The notes below the pieces were generated by a model that was given only the letters and a program-made list of their open reading frames with translations, searched no databases and was not told the origin of the DNA. Shown piece by piece: positions 9,839 through 55,602 of a DNA stretch of 64,000 nt (position 1 is the stretch's first letter; each line of letters begins with the position of its first letter). This stretch comes from an uncultured Bacteroidales bacterium. Lineage in GTDB: Bacteria; Bacteroidota; Bacteroidia; Bacteroidales; P3. The stretch lies in NCBI GenBank assembly GCA_900316515.1, contig ONDE01000009.1, positions 1 to 64,000 on the forward strand. Reading direction: 5' to 3'. The translations under genes were made by a program, and so were the position numbers.

Positions 9839-9935
9839 CGGAAGTGGGTGGTATGTGAGTAGTATGTGAGTAGTATGTGAGCAGTATGTGATGGGGGAGA
9901 AGTGAGAGTTAGGAGAGAGTTAGGTGAGAGGAGAG
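9838..9935. repeat. Period-11 tandem repeat (gtatgtgagta type)
   Basis: Several units of gtatgtgagta/gtatgtgagca fade into purine-rich gagagttag units. Closely similar arrays occur near 24600-24660 and 55500-55600. Confidence 0.75.
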
Positions 9936-24599: not shown

Positions 24600-24662
24600 T
24601 AATACACATCCACATCACATACTGCTCACATACTGCTCACATACTACTCACATACTACTCAC
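24600..24662. repeat. Period-11 tandem repeat (catactactca type)
   Basis: Two catactgctca units are followed by two catactactca units. The array is the reverse complement of those at 9838 and 55560, in a gene-free 24541-24738 gap. Confidence 0.85.
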
Positions 24663-27387: not shown

Positions 27388-29763
27388 TTAGAACGGATAG
27401 TTGATACCGAAGTTCGTTACTATCTGGTTGAAATGCCAGTGCGGCGGACGGAAGCGGTGCGAGAGGGCGTAGCCGGGGTCGTATAACGGTATGCCGAAGT
27501 CGAGTCGCAGGGTGGCTATCGAAACAGAGACGCGAAGGCCAAGACCTATGCCTACAGCCACCTCCGAAGGCAGACTCTTCAACTTTATCTCGCCACCGGG
27601 ATATTGCTCCGACGAGTTGAGGAGCCATACATTGCCCATATCGGCGAAGACTGCCCCTTCAAATACGCCTGCTATCGGGAAACGCCCTTCCAGGTTCAGC
27701 ACCAGCTGCAGGTCGCCCACACGTTCGAGCATGTCTTCACTGCCATAGTAGGAGCCAGGCCCCAGGTGGCGCAGCTGCCAGGCGCGCATCGTCGTGGGGC
27801 CGCCGCCGAAGAAACTCTTCTCATATGGCATCGATATGGAGTTGCCATAGGGGATGCCTATGCCAAGAAGTATGCGGGCAACAAGCGAACTCTTGTCACC
27901 GATATAGTGGTATCGTGTCCATTCCCCGCCAAGACGTACATACTGCGCGTAGGGCACGCCGAGCACTTGGCGCACACCGTTGCTGTCGGCCTCTATGCCT
28001 GCTATGGCGCCGATGCCTGCCAGCAGGTTGCCGGCCGTCTCAAACGAGAGGTGGAGTATGGAGAAGTTGCTCCGCGAACCGTACACCTGGTTGCTGTAGG
28101 TGTAGTCATATCGTGCGTCGAGGATAAAGTGCGAACTGTACTGGTATTTCAGCCTCAGGTCCGACAGCTGGTTCAGGCGCGCCAGGAAGTTGGCGTCGAG
28201 GTTCAGTATCCGCACAAAGGTCATCTCTATGGGCAGCAGCTGGTGCGAGACATTCTTGTTCCAGCGCCAGTTGTAACCGAACGACGTGTTGGCCAGTATA
28301 CGCTCGTAGTAGTAGCGGTATTGGTAGCTGCCGCCGAGGGTCAGCAGGGTGTGTGGCTTGGTGCGGTAGAAACGGATGCCGTTGGCGAAAGGCAGCAGGA
28401 AGATAGGCATGTCGAGCGACAGCTCCAGGTCGGCCTCGAAGGCGCTGAAGTTGTCGTAGAATCCTTGGCCGCTCTGGCGGAAGATGAGCTTCGGAAGTTC
28501 CAGCAGCATGGAACTCTTCACCCGCAGCAGTTCGGCACCGCCGAACAGGTTCTTGTGCTGGTATTCCAGCGAGGTCTGCAGTCCCAGGTTGCCGCCGAGG
28601 AGAAACGAACTGCTGTCCGACGAACCGAGCGGCGAGGCGTTGGTCAACTCAAACGACAGCGACAGCCGCTGCATCGTGCTGTTGATGAGTCGTATGTGCG
28701 CGTCGACAAGGGGCAGCGTGTCGGTCGACGAGGGCGACTCGGTGAACTCAATGTTTATGTATTTGAAGGTGCGCAGTCCCAGCAGCGAGTTGTAGGTGTC
28801 GGTGATATAGCGCGGTCGGTACGTCATGCCGGGGAAGATGGAGAGCGAACGGCTGATGGTCTGCGGCCTGATGCTCATCGGTCGGTCGTATATGTAGTGC
28901 AGGTCGATGCGGCGGCGGGCTCCGGGGTAGTTGTAGATTAGGGTGTCGAACTGCCGCGGCGCCTCTCTGAGGTTGGCGGTGCTGTTGGGAAATATGTCGA
29001 TGTTGTTGATGTGGTATATCTTGAGCGCCGAACCGTCGACAACAACATCTATGCTCAGGTGTCCGCTCAGATAGGTGGTGTCGACCAAGAATGAGATGTT
29101 CTCGCCCGACGCGTGGAAGAATCCCGATTCACGCAGGTTTGAGGCTAGACGGGCTCGTTCGGCGGCCAGGTTCTCCTGGTCGTAGTAGTCGCCGACGCGG
29201 ATGGGCGAGTCGCTGCGCCATTCGTCGAGCATCTTCGCTATCGTGCTGTTGTCGGTGCGATAGAGCACCTCGTCAATCACATGGCGTTGGGTGGCTGCCA
29301 CGTGATAGCCAATCGTTATGTCGCGTTTGCGTCGCGTGATCTTTGTGTCCAGGGTGTCGAAACTTACCTTGGAACCGAAACAGCCTTTGCTCTCGAGCAG
29401 TTGCTGCAGCTGCTGCGCCGAACGGTAGGCTTTGTTCTCGTCGTATACCACCGTGGCCTGTCCTGTGCGGCGCCAGTAGTTGCCCCAGAAGGTGCTGTCG
29501 CTGGGCGATGCCCAGTTGTAGATATACATGCCGACGCGGCCCAGAAAGAGTATTTTGCTGTTGGGCTTCTGCAGCATGTAACTCTTCGACTTCTTCAGCG
29601 CCGCCGACACCTCGGGCGCTACATCGCTGCTGTCGGCCATGCTGATATCCACCACCTGCCGATAGAGGGCGTACTCGTCGTCGGCAAGGTAGCGCGTGTT
29701 CGTGCAGCTTGCTGCAACGACAGCCAGCAACAAGATGATTATATATGGCAGTCTACGCTTCAA
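27388..29763 (-). CDS. tamL: Lipidated BamA/TamA-family outer membrane protein TamL
   Basis: The 791-residue protein has a lipoprotein signal (LAVVAASC, Cys at about 20) followed by CTNTRYLADDEY. POTRA-like repeats cover about residues 30-400, and a C-terminal 16-strand-type barrel has FFGGGPTTMRAWQLRHLGPG (the VRGY/RGF-like loop) and ends FGINYPF. The lipid anchor on a TamA-like protein marks Bacteroidota TamL. It inserts or assembles outer-membrane material. The usual TamB partner is not adjacent; instead the gene overlaps waaA by 11 bases. Confidence 0.9.
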   Translation of the reverse strand: MKRRLPYIIILLLAVVAASCTNTRYLADDEYALYRQVVDISMADSSDVAPEVSAALKKSKSYMLQKPNSKILFLGRVGMYIYNWASPSDSTFWGNYWRRTGQATVVYDENKAYRSAQQLQQLLESKGCFGSKVSFDTLDTKITRRKRDITIGYHVAATQRHVIDEVLYRTDNSTIAKMLDEWRSDSPIRVGDYYDQENLAAERARLASNLRESGFFHASGENISFLVDTTYLSGHLSIDVVVDGSALKIYHINNIDIFPNSTANLREAPRQFDTLIYNYPGARRRIDLHYIYDRPMSIRPQTISRSLSIFPGMTYRPRYITDTYNSLLGLRTFKYINIEFTESPSSTDTLPLVDAHIRLINSTMQRLSLSFELTNASPLGSSDSSSFLLGGNLGLQTSLEYQHKNLFGGAELLRVKSSMLLELPKLIFRQSGQGFYDNFSAFEADLELSLDMPIFLLPFANGIRFYRTKPHTLLTLGGSYQYRYYYERILANTSFGYNWRWNKNVSHQLLPIEMTFVRILNLDANFLARLNQLSDLRLKYQYSSHFILDARYDYTYSNQVYGSRSNFSILHLSFETAGNLLAGIGAIAGIEADSNGVRQVLGVPYAQYVRLGGEWTRYHYIGDKSSLVARILLGIGIPYGNSISMPYEKSFFGGGPTTMRAWQLRHLGPGSYYGSEDMLERVGDLQLVLNLEGRFPIAGVFEGAVFADMGNVWLLNSSEQYPGGEIKLKSLPSEVAVGIGLGLRVSVSIATLRLDFGIPLYDPGYALSHRFRPPHWHFNQIVTNFGINYPF

Positions 29764-31021
29764 GGGTGTTGAGTATGATGTCGGTGCTGCCGAGGTTGCG
29801 GCGCATCAGTTTCAGACAGGCGTCCGAGGCGGCACGGTAGACCTCCTCGTCGGTGAACCATTTCCGTAGTAGCGACACATCGGGGTGCTCGTCGACAGCC
29901 GTGCCGCCTCCTAGTTCGATAATGTCGTGTGCTTCCTGGAACTTGTGCCAGTTGGGACCGAAGACCACGGGCTTGCCGAAGGTTACGGCTTCCAGTATGT
30001 TGTGTATGCCCACCCCGAAGCCCCCGCCGATATACGCCACGTCGGCATAGCGATAGAGCTTCGACAGCAGGCCTATGTTGTCGATGATGAGAGCCTGAGA
30101 TTGCTTGATTGTTTGTGGTGTGCCGTCGGCTCGGCCGACAATGCTTGATTGCTTGAGTTGGGAGTAGCGGACGCTGTCGGGGAACAGTCTCTCTATTTGC
30201 TGCAGGTGCTCTTCGTGTATCTGGTGCGGGGCGATGATGAGCCGTTCCGGGAACCACTCCTTGCCGTCGTTCAGTCGTGCCAGCAGTTGCTCGTCGGGCG
30301 GCCAGGTGCTGCCACAGACCAGCACTTTGCCATTGTATCCTTGCAGGAATTCTTCCACCACCGTGTCCCCCTCGGCGGCGGTGGCTATCTGGTGCACACG
30401 GTCGTAGCGCGTGTCGCCGGCGATGGTGCTATGCTCTATGCCGTGGGCTTGCAGCAGATGCAGGCTCTCCTCGTTTTGCACGAAGAGGTGGCCGAAGCAC
30501 TCTTTCAGCTGCCGTAGGTACCATCTGCCCCACGGCTTGAAGAAATACTGCCCCGGGCGGAATATGGCCGAGAAGATATATGTGGAGATACCCCTGCGGC
30601 GCAACTCGCCGAGGTAGTTGTACCAGAACTCGTACTTGACGAAGAACGTCACCGTGGGCTTCACGGCATCGAGGAAGCGGCGCACGTTGTGCGGCGTGTC
30701 CATTGGCAGGTAGCACACAGCCTGTGCCTTTGCGTAGTTCTTCCGCACCTCGTAGCCCGAGGGCGAGAAGAAGGTTACGAGCACTTGGTGCTCGGGGTGC
30801 CTCTCGATGTAGGCTTCCAGCACAGGCCTCGCCTGCTCGAACTCACCCAGGCTGGCGGCATGGAACCATGCCACTGGACGCTCGTGGTTCAGCTTGGTCA
30901 CCAGTTCGGGCCAGCGCTTCCACCCCTCAACCATCTGGCACGCCTTGGTGTGGCCGAACAGCGCCGCCACACGCACCCCCAGCGTGTAGAACCAAATCCC
31001 AATGGTGTAAATCAGACGCAT
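29753..31021 (-). CDS. waaA: 3-deoxy-D-manno-octulosonic acid transferase (Kdo transferase)
   Basis: The 422-residue GT30 enzyme adds Kdo to lipid A on the inner face of the inner membrane. Family motifs are visible: WFHAASLGEFEQARP near residue 52, TFFSPSGYEV, FVKYEFWYNYLGEL, CGSTWPPDEQ, APHQIHEEHL and YIGGGFGVGIHNILEAVTFGKPVVFGPNW. About 20 residues (KQSSIVGRADGTPQTIKQSQ) before LIIDNIGLL come from a 60-bp palindromic element inserted in frame. Coupled to tamL by overlap. Confidence 0.95.
   Translation of the reverse strand: MRLIYTIGIWFYTLGVRVAALFGHTKACQMVEGWKRWPELVTKLNHERPVAWFHAASLGEFEQARPVLEAYIERHPEHQVLVTFFSPSGYEVRKNYAKAQAVCYLPMDTPHNVRRFLDAVKPTVTFFVKYEFWYNYLGELRRRGISTYIFSAIFRPGQYFFKPWGRWYLRQLKECFGHLFVQNEESLHLLQAHGIEHSTIAGDTRYDRVHQIATAAEGDTVVEEFLQGYNGKVLVCGSTWPPDEQLLARLNDGKEWFPERLIIAPHQIHEEHLQQIERLFPDSVRYSQLKQSSIVGRADGTPQTIKQSQALIIDNIGLLSKLYRYADVAYIGGGFGVGIHNILEAVTFGKPVVFGPNWHKFQEAHDIIELGGGTAVDEHPDVSLLRKWFTDEEVYRAASDACLKLMRRNLGSTDIILNTLEA
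30099..30158. repeat. 60-bp palindromic element, copy in waaA
   Basis: The core GTCGGCTCGGCCGAC (6-bp arms, 3-base loop) is flanked by direct octamers of the gcttgatt type. It is exactly 20 codons and leaves the waaA frame open. It differs at one base from the copy at 44085-44144. Confidence 0.9.
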
Positions 31022-31024
31022 AGC

Positions 31025-31104
31025 TTTTAGTCTTTTCGACTTTTCGACTCTTCGACTTTTCGACTCTTAGACTTTTCGACTTTTAGACTTTTTGACTCTT
31101 AGGC
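31025..31104. repeat. Period-8 tandem repeat (ttttcgac type)
   Basis: About nine units (ttttcgac, tcttcgac, ttttagac, tcttagac) fill the whole gap between an outer-membrane-protein gene and waaA. Confidence 0.85.
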
Positions 31105-31926
31105 TTAATAATAGTAGTAATCATACGTCGTCTTGCCCATCAGCGGGAACATCCAGGTAAGCTTCACGCCGTAGAGCAGGTCGAAGTAGCGGTTGTTGTC
31201 CTTGCCGTTCAGACCCATCTTGTTGTCTATTATATATGGGCGGCTCGACCAACTGAAGCACTGGCTGATGTCGAAGCTGATACGCACGTTGACGTAGGTG
31301 GAGTAGTTGCTCATGAACACGAAGCCTATGCTCTCGGTCAGTATGGCGCCGTTGCGCAGGTGGTCGTACAGCTTGCCGTATTCGTCCACCACCTGTGGCA
31401 CTGGGGCTTCGGTAAACTCCTGGTGGAACACCGTCTGCTGCAAGAACCATCCGCCGCTCACTTTCAGCAGCAGGCCCGAATTGGGGTTGCCTTTCAGCAC
31501 CGGGATTATCTTCCCGCCGCCGATACGGGCTGCCAAGCCGCGGTTGTAGGCGGTGACATATCCGTCTGTGCCGCCCCACGAATAGGCGATGCCGTTGGGC
31601 AGATACACGTTGGGCATACGTTCGCTGCGCTCCTGCAGGTTGTCGCTGTTGAGGCCGAACCACAGGTCGGCGTCTAGGGTCACCAGCCAGTTGCTCTTGT
31701 ATTTGTAGTCGCAGTTCAGTGCGAAGTCCAGCCACGGACTTCCGTACAGGTCTTTCATCCCGCCGCCAAGGGCCCCCTCGCTGGCGCTGCCGCCGCCAGG
31801 CATCAGTATTCCCGCCGAGAAACCTATCACGTGGCACTCCAAGGTGTCGGCCGTGAGCTTCACCTGGGCATTGGAACATAGTGCCAAGCATATCAGTGAT
31901 GCTGTGATTATCAGTCGTTTGCTCAT
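31105..31926 (-). CDS. Hypothetical outer-membrane beta-barrel-like protein
   Basis: The 273-residue protein has a signal peptide (MSKRLIITASLICLALCSNAQ). Alternating strands follow, such as WLVTLDADLWFG, GLLLKVSGGWFLQQ and YVNVRISFDI, ending in an aromatic KTTYDYYYY. This is the look of a small outer-membrane barrel. No family is recognised. It may share transcription with waaA-tamL, with a repeat array in between. It is divergent from proS. Confidence 0.7.
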   Translation of the reverse strand: MSKRLIITASLICLALCSNAQVKLTADTLECHVIGFSAGILMPGGGSASEGALGGGMKDLYGSPWLDFALNCDYKYKSNWLVTLDADLWFGLNSDNLQERSERMPNVYLPNGIAYSWGGTDGYVTAYNRGLAARIGGGKIIPVLKGNPNSGLLLKVSGGWFLQQTVFHQEFTEAPVPQVVDEYGKLYDHLRNGAILTESIGFVFMSNYSTYVNVRISFDISQCFSWSSRPYIIDNKMGLNGKDNNRYFDLLYGVKLTWMFPLMGKTTYDYYYY

Positions 31927-35070: not shown

Positions 35071-35088
35071 GGTTGTCGGCCGAGCCGA
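35071..35088. repeat. Isolated core of the palindromic element
   Basis: Eighteen bases containing GTCGGCCGAGCCGAC are identical to the core found in waaA and mtaB, but without the octamer flanks. The rest of 34999-35172 holds a few TGGTTTACA repeats and no gene. Confidence 0.7.
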
Positions 35089-35251
35089 CGCCACAGCAAA
35101 ACTGAATTGGTTTACATTGTTTCGTCCATATCCCTAATCTGGTTTACACCTTCACGGTTTTGGTTTACACTTCCTCGCACCGCCGCGTCGTCTTCGCCCG
35201 CAGCTACTAATTGCAGTAGTTAAGGAGACAGTAGTTAAGTAGATACTATTT

Positions 35252-35377: not shown

Positions 35378-36123
35378 AAGGATAATTGCTTGAAAAGTAA
35401 ACATTGATAATAGATCTTTGACATCCGCAGGGCAAGACCGACATCGGTCCTCATGGGTTGTGAATTGCTTGAAAAGTAAACATTGATAATAGATCTTTGA
35501 CATCTTAAGACACTCAACATAAGACTGAACTGGGGTTGTGAATTGCTTGAAAAGTAAACATTGATAATAGATCTTTGACATCCCGGACTTTGTACGTATT
35601 TTTCAATTACTGTTGTGAATTGCTTGAAAAGTAAACATTGATAATAGATCTTTGACATCGCTTCAGCAGAAATTTGAACAGAGGAGTAGTTGTGAATTGC
35701 TTGAAAAGTAAACATTGATAATAGATCTTTGACATCGGCGACACGTTGGGATGAAGCCTACGAGGGTTGTGAATTGCTTGAAAAGTAAACATTGATAATA
35801 GATCTTTGACATCGCGGTATTTTCCATCCTCTTTGACTACTAGTTGTGAATTGCTTGAAAAGTAAACATTGATAATAGATCTTTGACATCATAAGACGAC
35901 CTATTATAGAGGCGTAGCGGTTGTGAATTGCTTGAAAAGTAAACATTGATAATAGATCTTTGACATCGATGGGCACGGCCGCCTATGCCATCCTCGAGTT
36001 GTGAATTGCTTGAAAAGTAAACATTGATAATAGATCTTTGACATCCACGTTTGAACATTGTCGAAATCAACGTAAGTTGTGAATTGCTTGAAAAGTAAAC
36101 ATTGATAATAGATCTTTGACATC
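35378..36123 (+). CRISPR. Type II-C CRISPR array, 10 repeats and 9 spacers
   Basis: The 48-bp repeat begins GTTGTGAATTGCTTGAAAAG and ends GATCTTTGACATC. Full copies start at 35457, 35535, 35612, 35689, 35766, 35843, 35920, 35998 and 36076. The copy at 35378 is identical except for its first 6 or so bases. The spacers are 29-31 bp and all different. The tracrRNA anti-repeat pairs with the 5' part of the repeat, so crRNAs read on the plus strand. The 3' half of each repeat resembles a promoter (TTG, 20 bases, GATCTTTG). Open frames across the array are artefacts. Confidence 0.98.
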
Positions 36124-36232: not shown

Positions 36233-37472
<1,240 letters not shown>

Positions 37473-37480
37473 AAGAAATA

Positions 37481-40400
37481 TTAATACTCTCCTACATGAA
37501 CTATTCGGCCGATATGGTCAATGCGTACTTTCACAATGCCTTTAAGGTTGTTGAGCGATGTTATCCTCTTCCAGGTTATGTTTTGAAGGGCTTTTTTGTC
37601 ATCTATGGTTGTCTCAAGGTGGTGACGGAACCAATAGTCTTTGCTCGACAGCTTTTGTACGCGGAATAGGTTGGGGCTAATCTGGCTGTAGTTGCGTTCG
37701 TCGGTAAGGTCTATTTCTGTGGGGTCGAAGCCCTGTGTAGGATTGGGAAAAACGAAGTATTCGTTTTGCTTCATGGTGAATAGGAACTGCCAACCTTTGT
37801 CTTTGTTATATTCTTTGTCGACAACGGGCATGTCGAGTTGTGTTACGCGTGCCACAGCTTCGTAGAAGGAAACTATATGCTCTTGCAGGTTGCCGTCGGC
37901 ATCGCGGAAGATGGCTACATGATGGTTGTTTTTGAGGTTGACATAATCGGCAGGTTGCAGATTGCCATCTGCGTCGAGTATCGGATGGCCCTCTTTATCG
38001 TGCTTGTGGTGCAATGGTTCACCTGGAATGCTCTCGACGATCGTAACTCGCTTGATGTCGATGCCACGCTCACGATTGAGCCATATCGGGTTGCTGTCGA
38101 GATTGGAGAATGCTTTGCCTGCATCGCCGCCATATTCGGCCAAGCGTGCTTGCAACAGGCGACGTACCCCATTGTCAAGCACTTTGTCTACGTTGAGGTC
38201 TTTGTCTACGCTTTTGCGGATTGTGAATTGTTTGTCATACTGGCGTATGAGTACTTTTTCCGGCACTTGGACGGTATGTTCGGCGTCAAGCCAGATGGGG
38301 CTCTTGGCGGGGCTGTTTTTGCCAGTGAAAGCTTTCTTGGTGTCGCCGTCAAACTCATCGAGGCGTTGTTGCAGCGCCTTGCGGTAGGTGGTATTCTGCA
38401 CTTGTGCTATTAGTTTGGCTGTCATTTTGCTGCCGACAGGCACCTCACATGTGGACGGTATGAGAGCAGAGCCGTATACTGTTTCCTTGTGCAGTTGCCC
38501 GCGAGGGGTGAGCTGTGTCTTCTGTTTATTGCCACCTTTGGTTTTGGTGATGTTGGTGTTGCGTGTTGCCACTTTGTTTTTTGCCTTGATAGATACCAGT
38601 ATCATCTCGAGGTGTCGTTTGGCTTCTGCACGGAAGTTGCCAGCAATAGGCATGACGAAACGTAGGTGGCCGTTTGCATCGCGCTCCAGGAAGTGGCGCT
38701 CAATAGAACGAATGTCATCAATATCGCGGGCATTAAGATGATTGAGGTAGTTGATGTACGCCGGGCGGGTAAAGGCGATGGTGAGTGCATCCATAGCGTG
38801 ATGGCGGTGGTCGTTGCGCTTTGTCCAGTCTTCGATTCGGCGTATCTGCTGCCCGTCGCGTCCTGTTATGACAGAGGTGAGTCCTTGTTGTTGGTATTTG
38901 CTCCAGTTGAGTTCCTGCATGATGTCGACCAGTTGCCAGTCTTGTCGCAGGCGGTCGGTGACGCTGCCGGTGGTGGCGGTTACGATGCGAGCAATGTCGT
39001 GCAACATTTCCTGGGCTTTGCGTGAGATATACTGAGTGTTGCGTAGGTCGCGCTCTATGAAGTCTTCAGGTATCTCGGCTTCAGTCATCTTGAGTTTACG
39101 CGCTTTGACAGGCGAGATGGCACCATTGCTAAGAAGGCTGTCGATGCGGCTTTTGTAATCAGAAACGCCGGAGTCGCCATATTTGTTTTTGACATAGTCG
39201 ATGGCGGTGGCGTTGCTCTTTTCTATATTTATATCTCGGTATTCGAGAGTCTTGTTTGAGAAAGAGTCGTCGAAGAGGCGTGACTGCGGTATGATATGCT
39301 CGATGTCTATATCCTTGCTGAAAAGCTTTTCTTTAGGAATGTATTGGTTGGAGTATAATGTTTTATAGCCGTTTGGTGCCAGTTCTTGATAAAGTCGGTA
39401 TCGGATGATGTCGTTGCGGCTGACATGCGTAAGGCCAAAGTCTTTCTGCAGGATGGTGCGGTATTGTTCTGTTTCGCGTGTGGTGCGGTTGATGGCTTCA
39501 GTCATAGCCTTGCGCTGTGCGGCGTTCCTCTTCAACTCGCGTGCAAGTTCGATGCGCACTTCGTCAGGACGACCGTATGCGTCAATGATTCCGTTGACTA
39601 CGTTAACCATCTGGTTTAATATTTTCTCCACCACTGGGTTGCGAAGACTGTTTTTGGCCAGCGGCTCAAGATGCTCTTTGAGTGGACGGCTGTCGTTCTC
39701 TTCGCGGGTAAGAGACTGCTCGGAATGCCTATAGCCAGCCAGAGCGCATGCCTCGCTGTATTCGTGTCCTGCGGCCATGTAGGGCAGAATGCGTTTGATG
39801 GCTTTTGTGGAAATGCTGCAATAGTCATCCTCGAAATGCAGTTTGGCATATAGCCTGGCATATTCATATGGCAAGTGAGTCAGCTCCATAATGTGTTTGG
39901 TCAGCTTCTCGTCGCCTGTTGTTGTGTTGTCGCCTTCGAAAGAATAAAGAAGGTGCCAGAGTCTCATCTGCGGCTCGTCTTCTATTTTTTCGGCGTCGGT
40001 GTTGAGGTTGAGCCAGTCGGTGGCATATCCGAGACCATGGAATACTGACTTGATAATGTCGAGTATTTGGTCGGCAGGCATTTTGGAGAAGTCGTATTCC
40101 CCGTGTCCGCTTAAAGAGATAATCTCTTGTGTGGCCGAGAGGATATTGGCCATTGTGCGGTCGCCATCGAGCGATGCAAAATTGAGGTCAAGTCCGCGGG
40201 TTTTTGTGAAGAGTGCTTTTAGTGCGTCTTTCTTGCTGAGTTTCTCCTTAAGGAGCAGCTCTGTGCAGAGTGTTGCTTTCTGTTCGTCATTAAGCACATA
40301 TTCTTCGTCGTCTTTTATTATAGTTACATTGTTTAGTGTTTGCCATATTCTGAAGCGTTGGAAAAGCGGCGATGATTTAGGGCATACTTTGCGATGTTCA

Positions 40401-41536
40401 AACGGGCAGTTGGCGACAAGCCATTTTTGCGACTTCAGCCTGCGTTGGTAGAAGATGATTATGTCGCGTATTTCGTGCTTTAGCTCCGGTGTCAGTTCTG
40501 TATGGTATCGAGCCTGCGTTTCCCATAGTTGTTCAAATTCATCCAAGTAATCTTGGCGGTAGAAGGGTTTGTTCTTGAGGCTTGCGTTGGGGTTGCTGTC
40601 CAGTTGCTGCATGAGATACTGCCCAACTGTTTGGTGGTTGATATATAGTATTTTGCTACGGTCGCTGATGGCACCGAGGTAGCCGCTACTGCTGTTTATC
40701 TGTCCGTTGACCTCGCAGATTACTGTTGCGAGCTCCTCTGGTGTCAGAGCCCTGTTGAGTGCATCGTTACGGAGAGAAAACAGTTGCTTGTTTCTCTCGA
40801 ACCGATTTCCCTTGATGTCGGCAGTATAAATGCCGTATGTCTTCGAAAAGACAACGCTGGTTCCTTTCTTGCTTTGCCCTTCTATGGAATTTCGGAAATC
40901 TGTCGATAGTATTGTGCTATGATACTGATGCTGGTATGCCCATATTTTGTCAAGTTCGGCCAGCAGGTCGGAACGATAGAAGTCAGGAATGTAGTGCTTG
41001 CCTTCGCTTATCAACAGGTGCCCATATTGGCCTGGAGTCATGCCCGAATCGTAGAGTTGGCGAGCCATATCGAGATTGTTGATAAAGCTACCATCCTCGT
41101 TATTGTTCATCTTTCGGCTGCTCTTATAGCCTCTCTTCTTGTTAAGCATGAGCAATACACGTGCGAACTGCTCCAGGGTAATCTCTTGTGAGGCGGCTTT
41201 GGCTCGCAGACGATAGGTCTCAAAAGTACTATTGTTGCCATTCTCTGATAGAATAGTATTGTCAGATATCCATTGGTTTTCTTTGAGGAGGGATATAAGG
41301 TTTTCGCGTCGCAGTTTGTATCGTTGCAGATTGCGTCGCATACTCCTTTTTAGGGTTCTGTCGGCTGTAGTGGTGATGGGAGCACCTTTCTCAAAGTTGG
41401 TTTGCTCGTCGGTGGTTAGCGGATTAACGCGAACACCAAGACGTACTATAGAAGAGTCTTTTGGCATATCAGCTTCGTTGACAACCGCCCAACCAATACT
41501 GGTGGTACCAAGGTCTAATCCTAATACTTTAGCCAT
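37481..41536 (-). CDS. cas9: CRISPR RNA-guided endonuclease Cas9 (subtype II-C)
   Basis: The 1351-residue nuclease cuts DNA matched by a crRNA:tracrRNA pair. All catalytic parts are present: RuvC-I VLGLDLGTTSIGWAV (Asp8), an arginine-rich bridge helix RRNLQRYKLRRENL near residue 65, RuvC-II IELARELK (Glu663), HNH IDIEHIIPQS (His747) with NKTLEYRDIN, and RuvC-III HRHHAMDAL (His913, Asp916). I start at MAKVLGLDLG; the upstream in-frame TTG (41554) falls at the likely transcription start. The size is large for II-C but usual for Bacteroidota. The promoter is divergent from the tracrRNA promoter. Confidence 0.98.
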   Translation of the reverse strand: MAKVLGLDLGTTSIGWAVVNEADMPKDSSIVRLGVRVNPLTTDEQTNFEKGAPITTTADRTLKRSMRRNLQRYKLRRENLISLLKENQWISDNTILSENGNNSTFETYRLRAKAASQEITLEQFARVLLMLNKKRGYKSSRKMNNNEDGSFINNLDMARQLYDSGMTPGQYGHLLISEGKHYIPDFYRSDLLAELDKIWAYQHQYHSTILSTDFRNSIEGQSKKGTSVVFSKTYGIYTADIKGNRFERNKQLFSLRNDALNRALTPEELATVICEVNGQINSSSGYLGAISDRSKILYINHQTVGQYLMQQLDSNPNASLKNKPFYRQDYLDEFEQLWETQARYHTELTPELKHEIRDIIIFYQRRLKSQKWLVANCPFEHRKVCPKSSPLFQRFRIWQTLNNVTIIKDDEEYVLNDEQKATLCTELLLKEKLSKKDALKALFTKTRGLDLNFASLDGDRTMANILSATQEIISLSGHGEYDFSKMPADQILDIIKSVFHGLGYATDWLNLNTDAEKIEDEPQMRLWHLLYSFEGDNTTTGDEKLTKHIMELTHLPYEYARLYAKLHFEDDYCSISTKAIKRILPYMAAGHEYSEACALAGYRHSEQSLTREENDSRPLKEHLEPLAKNSLRNPVVEKILNQMVNVVNGIIDAYGRPDEVRIELARELKRNAAQRKAMTEAINRTTRETEQYRTILQKDFGLTHVSRNDIIRYRLYQELAPNGYKTLYSNQYIPKEKLFSKDIDIEHIIPQSRLFDDSFSNKTLEYRDINIEKSNATAIDYVKNKYGDSGVSDYKSRIDSLLSNGAISPVKARKLKMTEAEIPEDFIERDLRNTQYISRKAQEMLHDIARIVTATTGSVTDRLRQDWQLVDIMQELNWSKYQQQGLTSVITGRDGQQIRRIEDWTKRNDHRHHAMDALTIAFTRPAYINYLNHLNARDIDDIRSIERHFLERDANGHLRFVMPIAGNFRAEAKRHLEMILVSIKAKNKVATRNTNITKTKGGNKQKTQLTPRGQLHKETVYGSALIPSTCEVPVGSKMTAKLIAQVQNTTYRKALQQRLDEFDGDTKKAFTGKNSPAKSPIWLDAEHTVQVPEKVLIRQYDKQFTIRKSVDKDLNVDKVLDNGVRRLLQARLAEYGGDAGKAFSNLDSNPIWLNRERGIDIKRVTIVESIPGEPLHHKHDKEGHPILDADGNLQPADYVNLKNNHHVAIFRDADGNLQEHIVSFYEAVARVTQLDMPVVDKEYNKDKGWQFLFTMKQNEYFVFPNPTQGFDPTEIDLTDERNYSQISPNLFRVQKLSSKDYWFRHHLETTIDDKKALQNITWKRITSLNNLKGIVKVRIDHIGRIVHVGEY

Positions 41537-41557
41537 AGTTATAGATGTTTTCAATGG

Positions 41558-43816: not shown

Positions 43817-43874
43817 GAAGTGAAGAGTGAAGAGTGAAAAGTGAAAAGTGAAGAATGAAGAGTGAAGAGTGAAA
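43817..43874. repeat. Degenerate 7-bp tandem repeat (agagtga type)
   Basis: About eight units of agagtga/aaagtga/agaatga follow the aquaporin stop. Confidence 0.85.
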
Positions 43875-43909
43875 GAGGCCGTCTCGATACGAGGCGGCCT
43901 CTTTAGTTT
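43872..43909 (+). terminator. Hairpin terminator after the aquaporin gene
   Basis: AAAGAGGCCG and CGGCCTCTTT arms with an inner CTCG/CGAG stem, then AGTTTTT. It works in either direction. Confidence 0.85.
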
Positions 43910-43961
43910 TTGGTTTTTACTTTTTACTTTTTAGTTTTTAGTTTTTAGTTTTTAGTTTACA
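43905..43961. repeat. Degenerate 7-bp tandem repeat (agttttt type)
   Basis: About seven units agttttt/ggttttt/acttttt run to the stop codon of mtaB. Confidence 0.85.
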
Positions 43962-45273
43962 CGTCGGCTGTCTCTTTGACGATGTTGTCGGGGGTGAGGG
44001 TTATCTCTTCGATGGTGTTGACGAGGGTTTCGTCGTAGGGACGGCAGAGACGTATGTAGTTGTCGGTCCAGCCTTGCATGGTTTGATTGCTTGATTGCTT
44101 GTGGTGTGCCGTCGGCTCGGCCGACAATGCTTGATTGCTTGAGTGGGGTGTGGATTCCCAGAGGACGGGGCGGGTCTTGCCGAGCTGGGAGGATATGAAT
44201 TCTTTATGTTTGCGCTCGCTGAGCTCGAGGAGGCGGGCGGTGTGCTCGCGGCGCACGGCGACGGGGATCTTCTCGCCCAGACGCAATGCTGCGGTGCCGG
44301 GGCGGTCGCTGTAGGTGAAGACGTGGAGGTAGGAGATGGGCAGCGAGTCGATGAAGGAGAGCACCTTGGCGAATTCATCCTCGTTCTCGCCGTTGAAGCC
44401 TGCCATGACGTCGGCGGCGATGCAGGCGTCGGGCATGACGGACTTGATGCGCTCGAGTTTGGCGCGGTAGAGGGCGGTGTCGTAGCGGCGGTGCATGAGC
44501 TGCAGCACATGGTCGGAGCCAGCCTGCAGGGGTATGTGGAAGTGGGGCAGGAAGGCGCGGCTGTGGGCCACGAAGTCTATTATCTCGTCGGTGAGCAGGT
44601 TGGGTTCGATGCTGGAGATGCGGTAGCGCAGGATGCCCTCGACCTGGTCGAGACCGCGCAGCAGGTCGAGGAACGACTCGCCGTGGTGCTGGCCGAAGGT
44701 GCCTGTGTTGACGCCGGTGAGTATCACCTCCTTGGAACCCGAGTCGGCGATGCGGCGGGCGGCGCAGAGGGTCTCCTCGATGGTGGCGGAACGCGAACGG
44801 CCGCGGGCGAAGGGGATGGCGCAGTAGGTGCAGAAGTAGTCGCAGCCGTCCTGTATCTTGAAGAAGGTGCGGGTGCGGTCGCCGGAGGAGGAGTATTGTA
44901 AGTTGAAAGTTGGAGGTTGAACGTTGAAATCGGGGCGGAAGCCGTTGCGGACAATGTCGGGGAGCAGGTGCTTGCGGTCGTTGCCGAGGACGAGGGTGAC
45001 GCCGGGGATGGCTTCGATTTCCTTGGCGGCGACTTGTGCGAAGCAGCCTATGACAGCTATCTGTGCATCGGGGTTCTTGCGGTGGGCCTGGTGGATGGCC
45101 GTGCGGCATTTTTTCTCGGCGACGGCGGTGACGGTGCAGGTGTTGACGATGTAGAGGTCGGCCTGCTGGTTCCAGTCGACAATGGTATTGCCTTCTGCGG
45201 CGAGACGCCGCAGAAGGTCGGAGGTTTCAGCGAAGTTGAGTTTGCACCCGAGGGTGTGGGCGGCGATGGTCAT
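43957..45273 (-). CDS. mtaB: tRNA t6A37 methylthiotransferase MtaB
   Basis: The 438-residue radical SAM enzyme converts t6A37 to ms2t6A37 in tRNA. The N-terminal UPF0004 domain has HTLGCKLNFAET (first Cys), VNTCTVT and VIGCFAQ. The radical SAM motif is CDYFCTYCAIPFARGRSRS, and a TRAM-like end has WTDNYIRLCRP. Two stretches look inserted: FNVQPPTFNLQ (period-7 repeat) and SNQALSAEPTAHHKQSSNQT (60-bp palindromic element) just before the TRAM part. It starts 3 bases after the MORN-repeat gene. tsaE, needed for the t6A substrate, is also in this window. Confidence 0.95.
   Translation of the reverse strand: MTIAAHTLGCKLNFAETSDLLRRLAAEGNTIVDWNQQADLYIVNTCTVTAVAEKKCRTAIHQAHRKNPDAQIAVIGCFAQVAAKEIEAIPGVTLVLGNDRKHLLPDIVRNGFRPDFNVQPPTFNLQYSSSGDRTRTFFKIQDGCDYFCTYCAIPFARGRSRSATIEETLCAARRIADSGSKEVILTGVNTGTFGQHHGESFLDLLRGLDQVEGILRYRISSIEPNLLTDEIIDFVAHSRAFLPHFHIPLQAGSDHVLQLMHRRYDTALYRAKLERIKSVMPDACIAADVMAGFNGENEDEFAKVLSFIDSLPISYLHVFTYSDRPGTAALRLGEKIPVAVRREHTARLLELSERKHKEFISSQLGKTRPVLWESTPHSSNQALSAEPTAHHKQSSNQTMQGWTDNYIRLCRPYDETLVNTIEEITLTPDNIVKETADV
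44085..44144. repeat. 60-bp palindromic element, copy in mtaB
   Basis: It matches 59 of 60 bases with the waaA copy but is translated in a different register. The core is GTCGGCTCGGCCGAC with gattgctt octamers on both sides. Confidence 0.92.
44897..44930. repeat. In-frame period-7 repeat in mtaB
   Basis: Units aagttga, aagttgg, aggttga, acgttga encode FNVQPPTFNLQ on the minus strand. Confidence 0.75.
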
Positions 45274-55489: not shown

Positions 55490-55602
55490 GAGGGAGTGGG
55501 GGAGTGATGGGGAAGTGATGGGGGAGTGAGTAGTGGGGTGGGTAGGGGGTGGGTAGTAAGTGAGTAGTAAGTGAGTAGTATGTGAGCAGTAAGTGATAGG
55601 GT
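55490..55602. repeat. Period-11 tandem repeat (agtgagtagta type)
   Basis: Purine-rich agtgatgggg units pass into agtgagtagta, agtgagtagta, tgtgagcagta. This fills most of the gene-free 55441-55731 stretch; the rest is AT-rich. Confidence 0.8.

Follow-up and report, generated by a model that had tools for sequence, protein, structure and literature searches.

A 24-bp palindrome, probably mobile, in genes, tandem arrays and tRNA gene fragments of one Bacteroidales genus

Selfish palindromes that sit in frame within genes have their best-known examples in Rickettsia. The Rickettsia palindromic elements RPE-1, RPE-4 and RPE-6 are dispersed palindromes that lie in frame in genes likely encoding functional proteins; two of them, RPE-4 and RPE-6, are members of the CGTC superfamily, in which stems measure 8–9 bp and loops 4–5 bases (PMC3733652). 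CGTC REPs, which include dRS3 of Neisseria, are short and palindromic, some of them are intragenic, they have no dedicated transposase, and they have been reported also in Bacteroidetes (PMC3733652). The GC clusters of yeast mitochondria (e.g., GC42) are very small palindromes able to multiply, to fuse with one another and to insert into genes; no mover is known for them (PMC4478555).

The element described here is the 24-bp core TGSTRTGSCGTCGGCTNNGCCGAC, found in a 64,000-nt stretch of DNA (hereafter, the window). Like the RPEs, it occurs in frame in genes and in several registers (as seen against the empty sites of mtaB, and in mnmE in three registers), and the likeness to RPEs put forward in a preliminary description of the window holds for the way of working. 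It differs from the RPEs in phylum and, by published CGTC features only, in sequence, and for this element a target rule, (G/C)TT^CRR, is shown. It differs from RPE-4, RPE-6 and other CGTC REPs in having a 6-bp stem and a 3-base loop in all variants folded. With CGTC REPs it shares its short, palindromic and intragenic character and the lack of a transposase gene flanked by copies (the Y1 loci hold one degenerate match); however, it has no unpaired CGTC tag, the CGTC of its core lying partly within the paired stem. Like GTAG REPs, it is a short hairpin, non-autonomous and cleanly inserted, but GTAG is absent from the 24-bp consensus and from the flanks, and neither the presence nor the number of Y1 genes follows its copies, as detailed below. 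By published criteria, the element is neither a GTAG nor a CGTC REP. The yeast GC clusters are likewise tiny spreading palindromes that can enter genes, whereas GC42 is mitochondrial, 42 bases long and provided with short direct repeats, and the 24-mer is constant in length and has no direct repeats. Unlike a MITE (terminal inverted repeats of 15–30 bp, total length of 70–300 bp, target duplication), it is 24 bp long, its hairpin is not terminal on both sides, and empty sites reveal no duplication. No description of the 24-bp element was found in the literature searched, which gave partial coverage, most subscription papers being outside it. The element adds a case from another phylum: its unit is far smaller, its empty sites can be read exactly in the DNA, and its target rule points to the tRNA T-loop.

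Two 60-mers of the window (30099–30158 and 44085–44144) are identical at 59/60 bases, with a match that ends abruptly on both sides, and both lie inside open frames on the minus strand, one in waaA and one in mtaB (Table 1). The preliminary description had singled out this pair, with its one difference and its different reading registers, and had concluded that the DNA rather than the peptide is the thing copied; the pair is confirmed, and the conclusion is upheld by the two peptides read from the same DNA (Table 1). The pair is not a product of chance, as a search for the 15-bp palindrome, with one mismatch allowed, gave 29 hits in the genome that contains the window (G000) and 0 for the reversed control. 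The view of the 60-mer as a dispersed palindromic element inserted in frame was correct except for its length. The mobile unit is the 24-bp core, and the octamers of the 60-mer are an older tandem array; the 60-mer as mobile unit is ruled out because the flanks vary by locus and the array predates the core. A third copy in the window was missing from the earlier account.

Table 1. Positions in the window of the 24-bp copies, the adjoining arrays, the host genes and other tandem arrays
Feature	Position	Strand	Remark
24-bp element TGGTGTGCCGTCGGCTCGGCCGAC in waaA	30116..30139	+	gene on minus strand; translated VGRADGTP
Octamer array, unit ATTGCTTG, one side of waaA copy	30099..30115	+	outside the element
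Octamer array, other side of waaA copy	30140..30158	+	starts AA
24-bp element in mtaB	44102..44125	+	identical to waaA copy; gene on minus strand; translated LSAEPTAHH
Octamer array next to mtaB copy	44083..44101	+	
Octamer array, other side of mtaB copy	44126..44144	+	
Third copy, variant TGCTGTGGCGTCGGCTCGGCCGAC	35075..35098	-	intergenic repeat near CRISPR array
waaA, Kdo transferase, host gene	29753..31021	-	Pfam Glycos_transf_N
mtaB-like radical SAM methylthiotransferase, host gene	43957..45273	-	Pfam UPF0004 + Radical_SAM
Tandem arrays, examples	43819-43958, 31024-31106, 9844-9930, 24605-24662, 55497-55596		

Alignment of 165 copies from the genus yields a conserved 24-bp block, TG(G/C)T(R)TG(G/C)C-GTCGGC-TNN-GCCGAC, which is nearly always followed by AA. 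One strand of the element reads T-GG-TRTG-CC-GTCGGC-TNN-GCCGAC and is predicted to fold, as DNA, into two adjacent hairpins, one of two pairs and one of six (about −6.6 kcal/mol; z about −1.9). Pair-keeping changes replace G3–C8 by C3–G8 in 16 copies and G13–C21 by A13–T21 in 8 copies, and may come from few events. Elsewhere the flanks consist of AAGTCTCG octamers, AACNTATC octamers, AACCTTG heptamers, an 11-bp repeat, unique intergenic DNA or genes. In the strict cases, with array on both sides of the element, the phase of the array is preserved across the 24 bp (7/7). Cores in tandem are spaced by 24 bp plus whole array units, that is, by 40, 56, 64 or 72 bp in octamers and by 52 bp (24 + 4 × 7) in the heptamers of locus L326, and head-to-tail pairs of unlike variants (L057, L281, L283 and L312) are as expected if a second copy entered at the GAC^AA end of an earlier one. 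The reading frame is maintained because 24 is divisible by three; the earlier account had ascribed this to a length of 60. Openness in six frames is unremarkable, and a design for open frames is ruled out: 64% of random sequences with the same build are open in all six, and 33 of the 61 element variants have a stop in some frame.

Sites without the element define its ends. In mtaB of three congeners (G002, G019 and G036), the octamer array stands alone, and the gap opposite the element measures exactly 24 bases, which indicates that the array is older than the core; relative to these congeners, the core is an exact eight-codon insertion. The bases beside the gap are AAT or AAC in the congeners and ATT in G000, and mtaB of two further species has neither array nor element. 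In genome G001, a truncated copy of a pyruvate oxidoreductase gene contains the element at GAGTT^CGG, whereas the full copy in the same genome and nine further genes in the alignment are without it, the gap again being exactly 24. The element-bearing copy, a truncated extra one, is not taken as a working gene and serves for the empty-site comparison only. The element also occupies the T-loop in partial tRNA-Arg, tRNA-Ala, tRNA-Leu and tmRNA genes that lie close to their intact counterparts. When the tRNA-Arg and tRNA-Ala fragments are compared with the intact gene of the same locus, the alignment crosses the insertion point without any loss or doubling of bases. Insertion is thus clean, without target duplication or loss, and takes place in front of AA. 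Partial tRNA or tmRNA genes near an intact gene, some of them in tandem, are seen at loci L205, L217, L289, L295, L298, L322, L054 and L201, and every fragment has the element in its T-loop.

The WaaA site is a variable loop in which short arrays differ by species. The extra length relative to short-loop relatives is about 11–13 residues, eight of which are the element and the remainder array, rather than the clean 20-residue insertion that had been expected. The site lies at about residues 295–315 of 422, beyond the Pfam N-terminal domain (37–208). Neither for waaA nor for mtaB do orthologues from distant genera carry the same peptide at the same place. No Rfam family was matched at the waaA site, and a known RNA family there was dropped as a candidate.

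Long open frames pass through copies in all six registers. Examples in G000 are waaA, mtaB and an MMPL/acyltransferase gene. In mnmE, which encodes a tRNA-modification GTPase, three copies in three registers lie in one octamer array (G102, L301), and relatives have a short loop or unrelated arrays at that position; a glycosyltransferase gene of G102 contains two copies within heptamer arrays. The element adds eight codons and lies in protein loops; as read from the sequence, housekeeping enzymes, among them WaaA, MtaB and MnmE, would gain eight-residue loops in this way.

The element is largely a feature of one genus of gut bacteria. A 26-mer search with up to 3 mismatches gave 28 copies in G000 and matches in 23/61 genomes searched (controls, 0), and the 28–29 copies of G000, a genome that is 98.7% complete, are the most of any genome. 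Within the genus, 77/120 genomes (G000 included) have the element, mostly in few copies (controls, 0). Elsewhere in the family, a single copy (L383) was found in one genome of another genus (G206); it occupies the same site, close to the end of the same gene, as in three species of the genus (L048, L050 and L324), and this common site is an old insertion, by shared descent, or the result of gene transfer. A sample of 393 genomes from across the order gave just two with the element, both of them of this genus, and a wide spread in the order was rejected. Viral contigs contained no exact match, and carriage by viruses was dropped. Among named relatives, those nearest to the host are uncultured Bacteroidales, and many of them come from the guts of ruminants. 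About 120 related genomes with or without copies make the movement of transposase-less palindromes directly testable.

Target statistics were obtained from 77 non-redundant sites. AA comes directly after the element in 71/77 and AAC or AAG in 67/77, and the motif (C/G)^AA(C/G) is found at 60/77 sites compared with 1.8% of positions. On the reverse strand, the target becomes (G/C)TT^CRR, to which the tRNA T-loop GGTT^CRA is the best fit; exact GGTT^CRA is present at 8/77 sites compared with 0.013% of positions. In a weight matrix built from the sites, the T-loop GGTT^CGAA scores 8.2 bits, above the 99.9th percentile of the background (7.2), a match that is partly circular because some T-loop sites were included in the matrix. 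Array units also score highly (AACCTTG in G023, 8.0; AAGTCTCG in G000, 5.4; AACCTATC in G102, 4.6; 99th percentile, 4.3), and in several landing arrays the repeat unit itself contains the target motif. Insertion into hairpin loops was rejected as a rule, flank complementarity being weakly above chance (5/200 permutations reach it).

The palindrome, exactly 24 bp long and hardly found outside a single Bacteroidales genus, is probably mobile but non-autonomous. An enzyme supplied in trans, by our best guess one of HUH type, would recognize the hairpin in single-stranded form and join it to the DNA behind (G/C)TT. The evidence for movement comes from comparisons between species and between copies in one genome, and the element may or may not be moving at present. 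Points against the explanation are that no mover was found and that the octamer of waaA and mtaB fits the target matrix poorly (−2.0). Copies within arrays probably also spread when arrays with a common unit recombine, which may account for the flanks common to the waaA and mtaB copies; one of these was probably copied from the other together with its flank, because the unusual TT beside the element and the array flanks are in common. It is unlikely that such recombination, or gene conversion, between like-unit arrays does all the work and carries an immobile 24-mer along. Most copies within G000 do lie in arrays of two units, and the 59/60 bases common to waaA and mtaB include the TT absent at the empty mtaB sites, but many other copies occupy unrelated unique sites and tRNA fragments under one target rule, and strict array contexts make up just 5/77 non-redundant sites. 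Recombination is refuted as the sole route by the copies outside arrays and is likely as a helper. A further reading, offered tentatively, is that this 24-bp mobile element, among the smallest known, has the T-loop GGTT^CRA of tRNA and tmRNA genes as its primary target and depends on an undescribed enzyme in trans, arrays and gene loops being secondary targets that resemble T-loops.

The hairpin, the fixed short target and the absence of target duplication would also suit a REP whose movement depends on a dedicated RAYT (a Y1 HUH transposase), the model put forward for GTAG REPs, and Y1 genes are present in 28/41 genomes of the genus. However, Y1_Tnp (Y1/RAYT) genes are absent from G000, the genome with the most copies, and from G008, G009 and G016; the number of Y1 genes is uncorrelated with element copy number over 37 genomes (rho 0.08, p 0.62); and the Y1 loci fetched are without an element copy, apart from one degenerate, chance-like match. 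The RAYT was therefore rejected as mover because of its absence from G000 and the uncorrelated copy number, and a dedicated RAYT is a doubtful explanation. The fit of the target to the T-loop and the copies in tRNA and tmRNA fragments might suggest that the element moves as RNA, joining the T-loop of a tRNA-like RNA and then being copied back into DNA, but the tRNA fragments extend beyond the gene into the genomic DNA downstream, a sign of duplication at the DNA level that makes an RNA route very improbable. Strong conservation of the 24 bp and of their pairing is what would be expected of a functional signal under selection (a terminator, uptake sequence or protein tag). Such a role is scarcely credible: 43/120 genomes of the genus are without the element and most others have few copies, no T-run follows it, it has no fixed position or strand relative to genes, it yields six different peptides, and the waaA site is without an Rfam family.

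The third copy of the window forms the middle of a longer intergenic repeat common to genome G063, where it occurs in two places, and is placed between the CRISPR array and its neighbour gene. This CRISPR-like array (35384–36123) has a unit of about 77 bp, and frames at 36233–41554 resemble cas2, cas1 and a 1357-residue Cas9 (type II), as named by sequence appearance. The window is rich in 7-, 8- and 11-bp tandem arrays, mostly intergenic (examples in Table 1), some of which serve the 24-mer as landing sites. A second short array lies in frame in mtaB (44896–44929; translated FNVQPPTFNLQ), at a position that in relatives holds different arrays or a short loop; the variable loops of mtaB gather tandem repeats.
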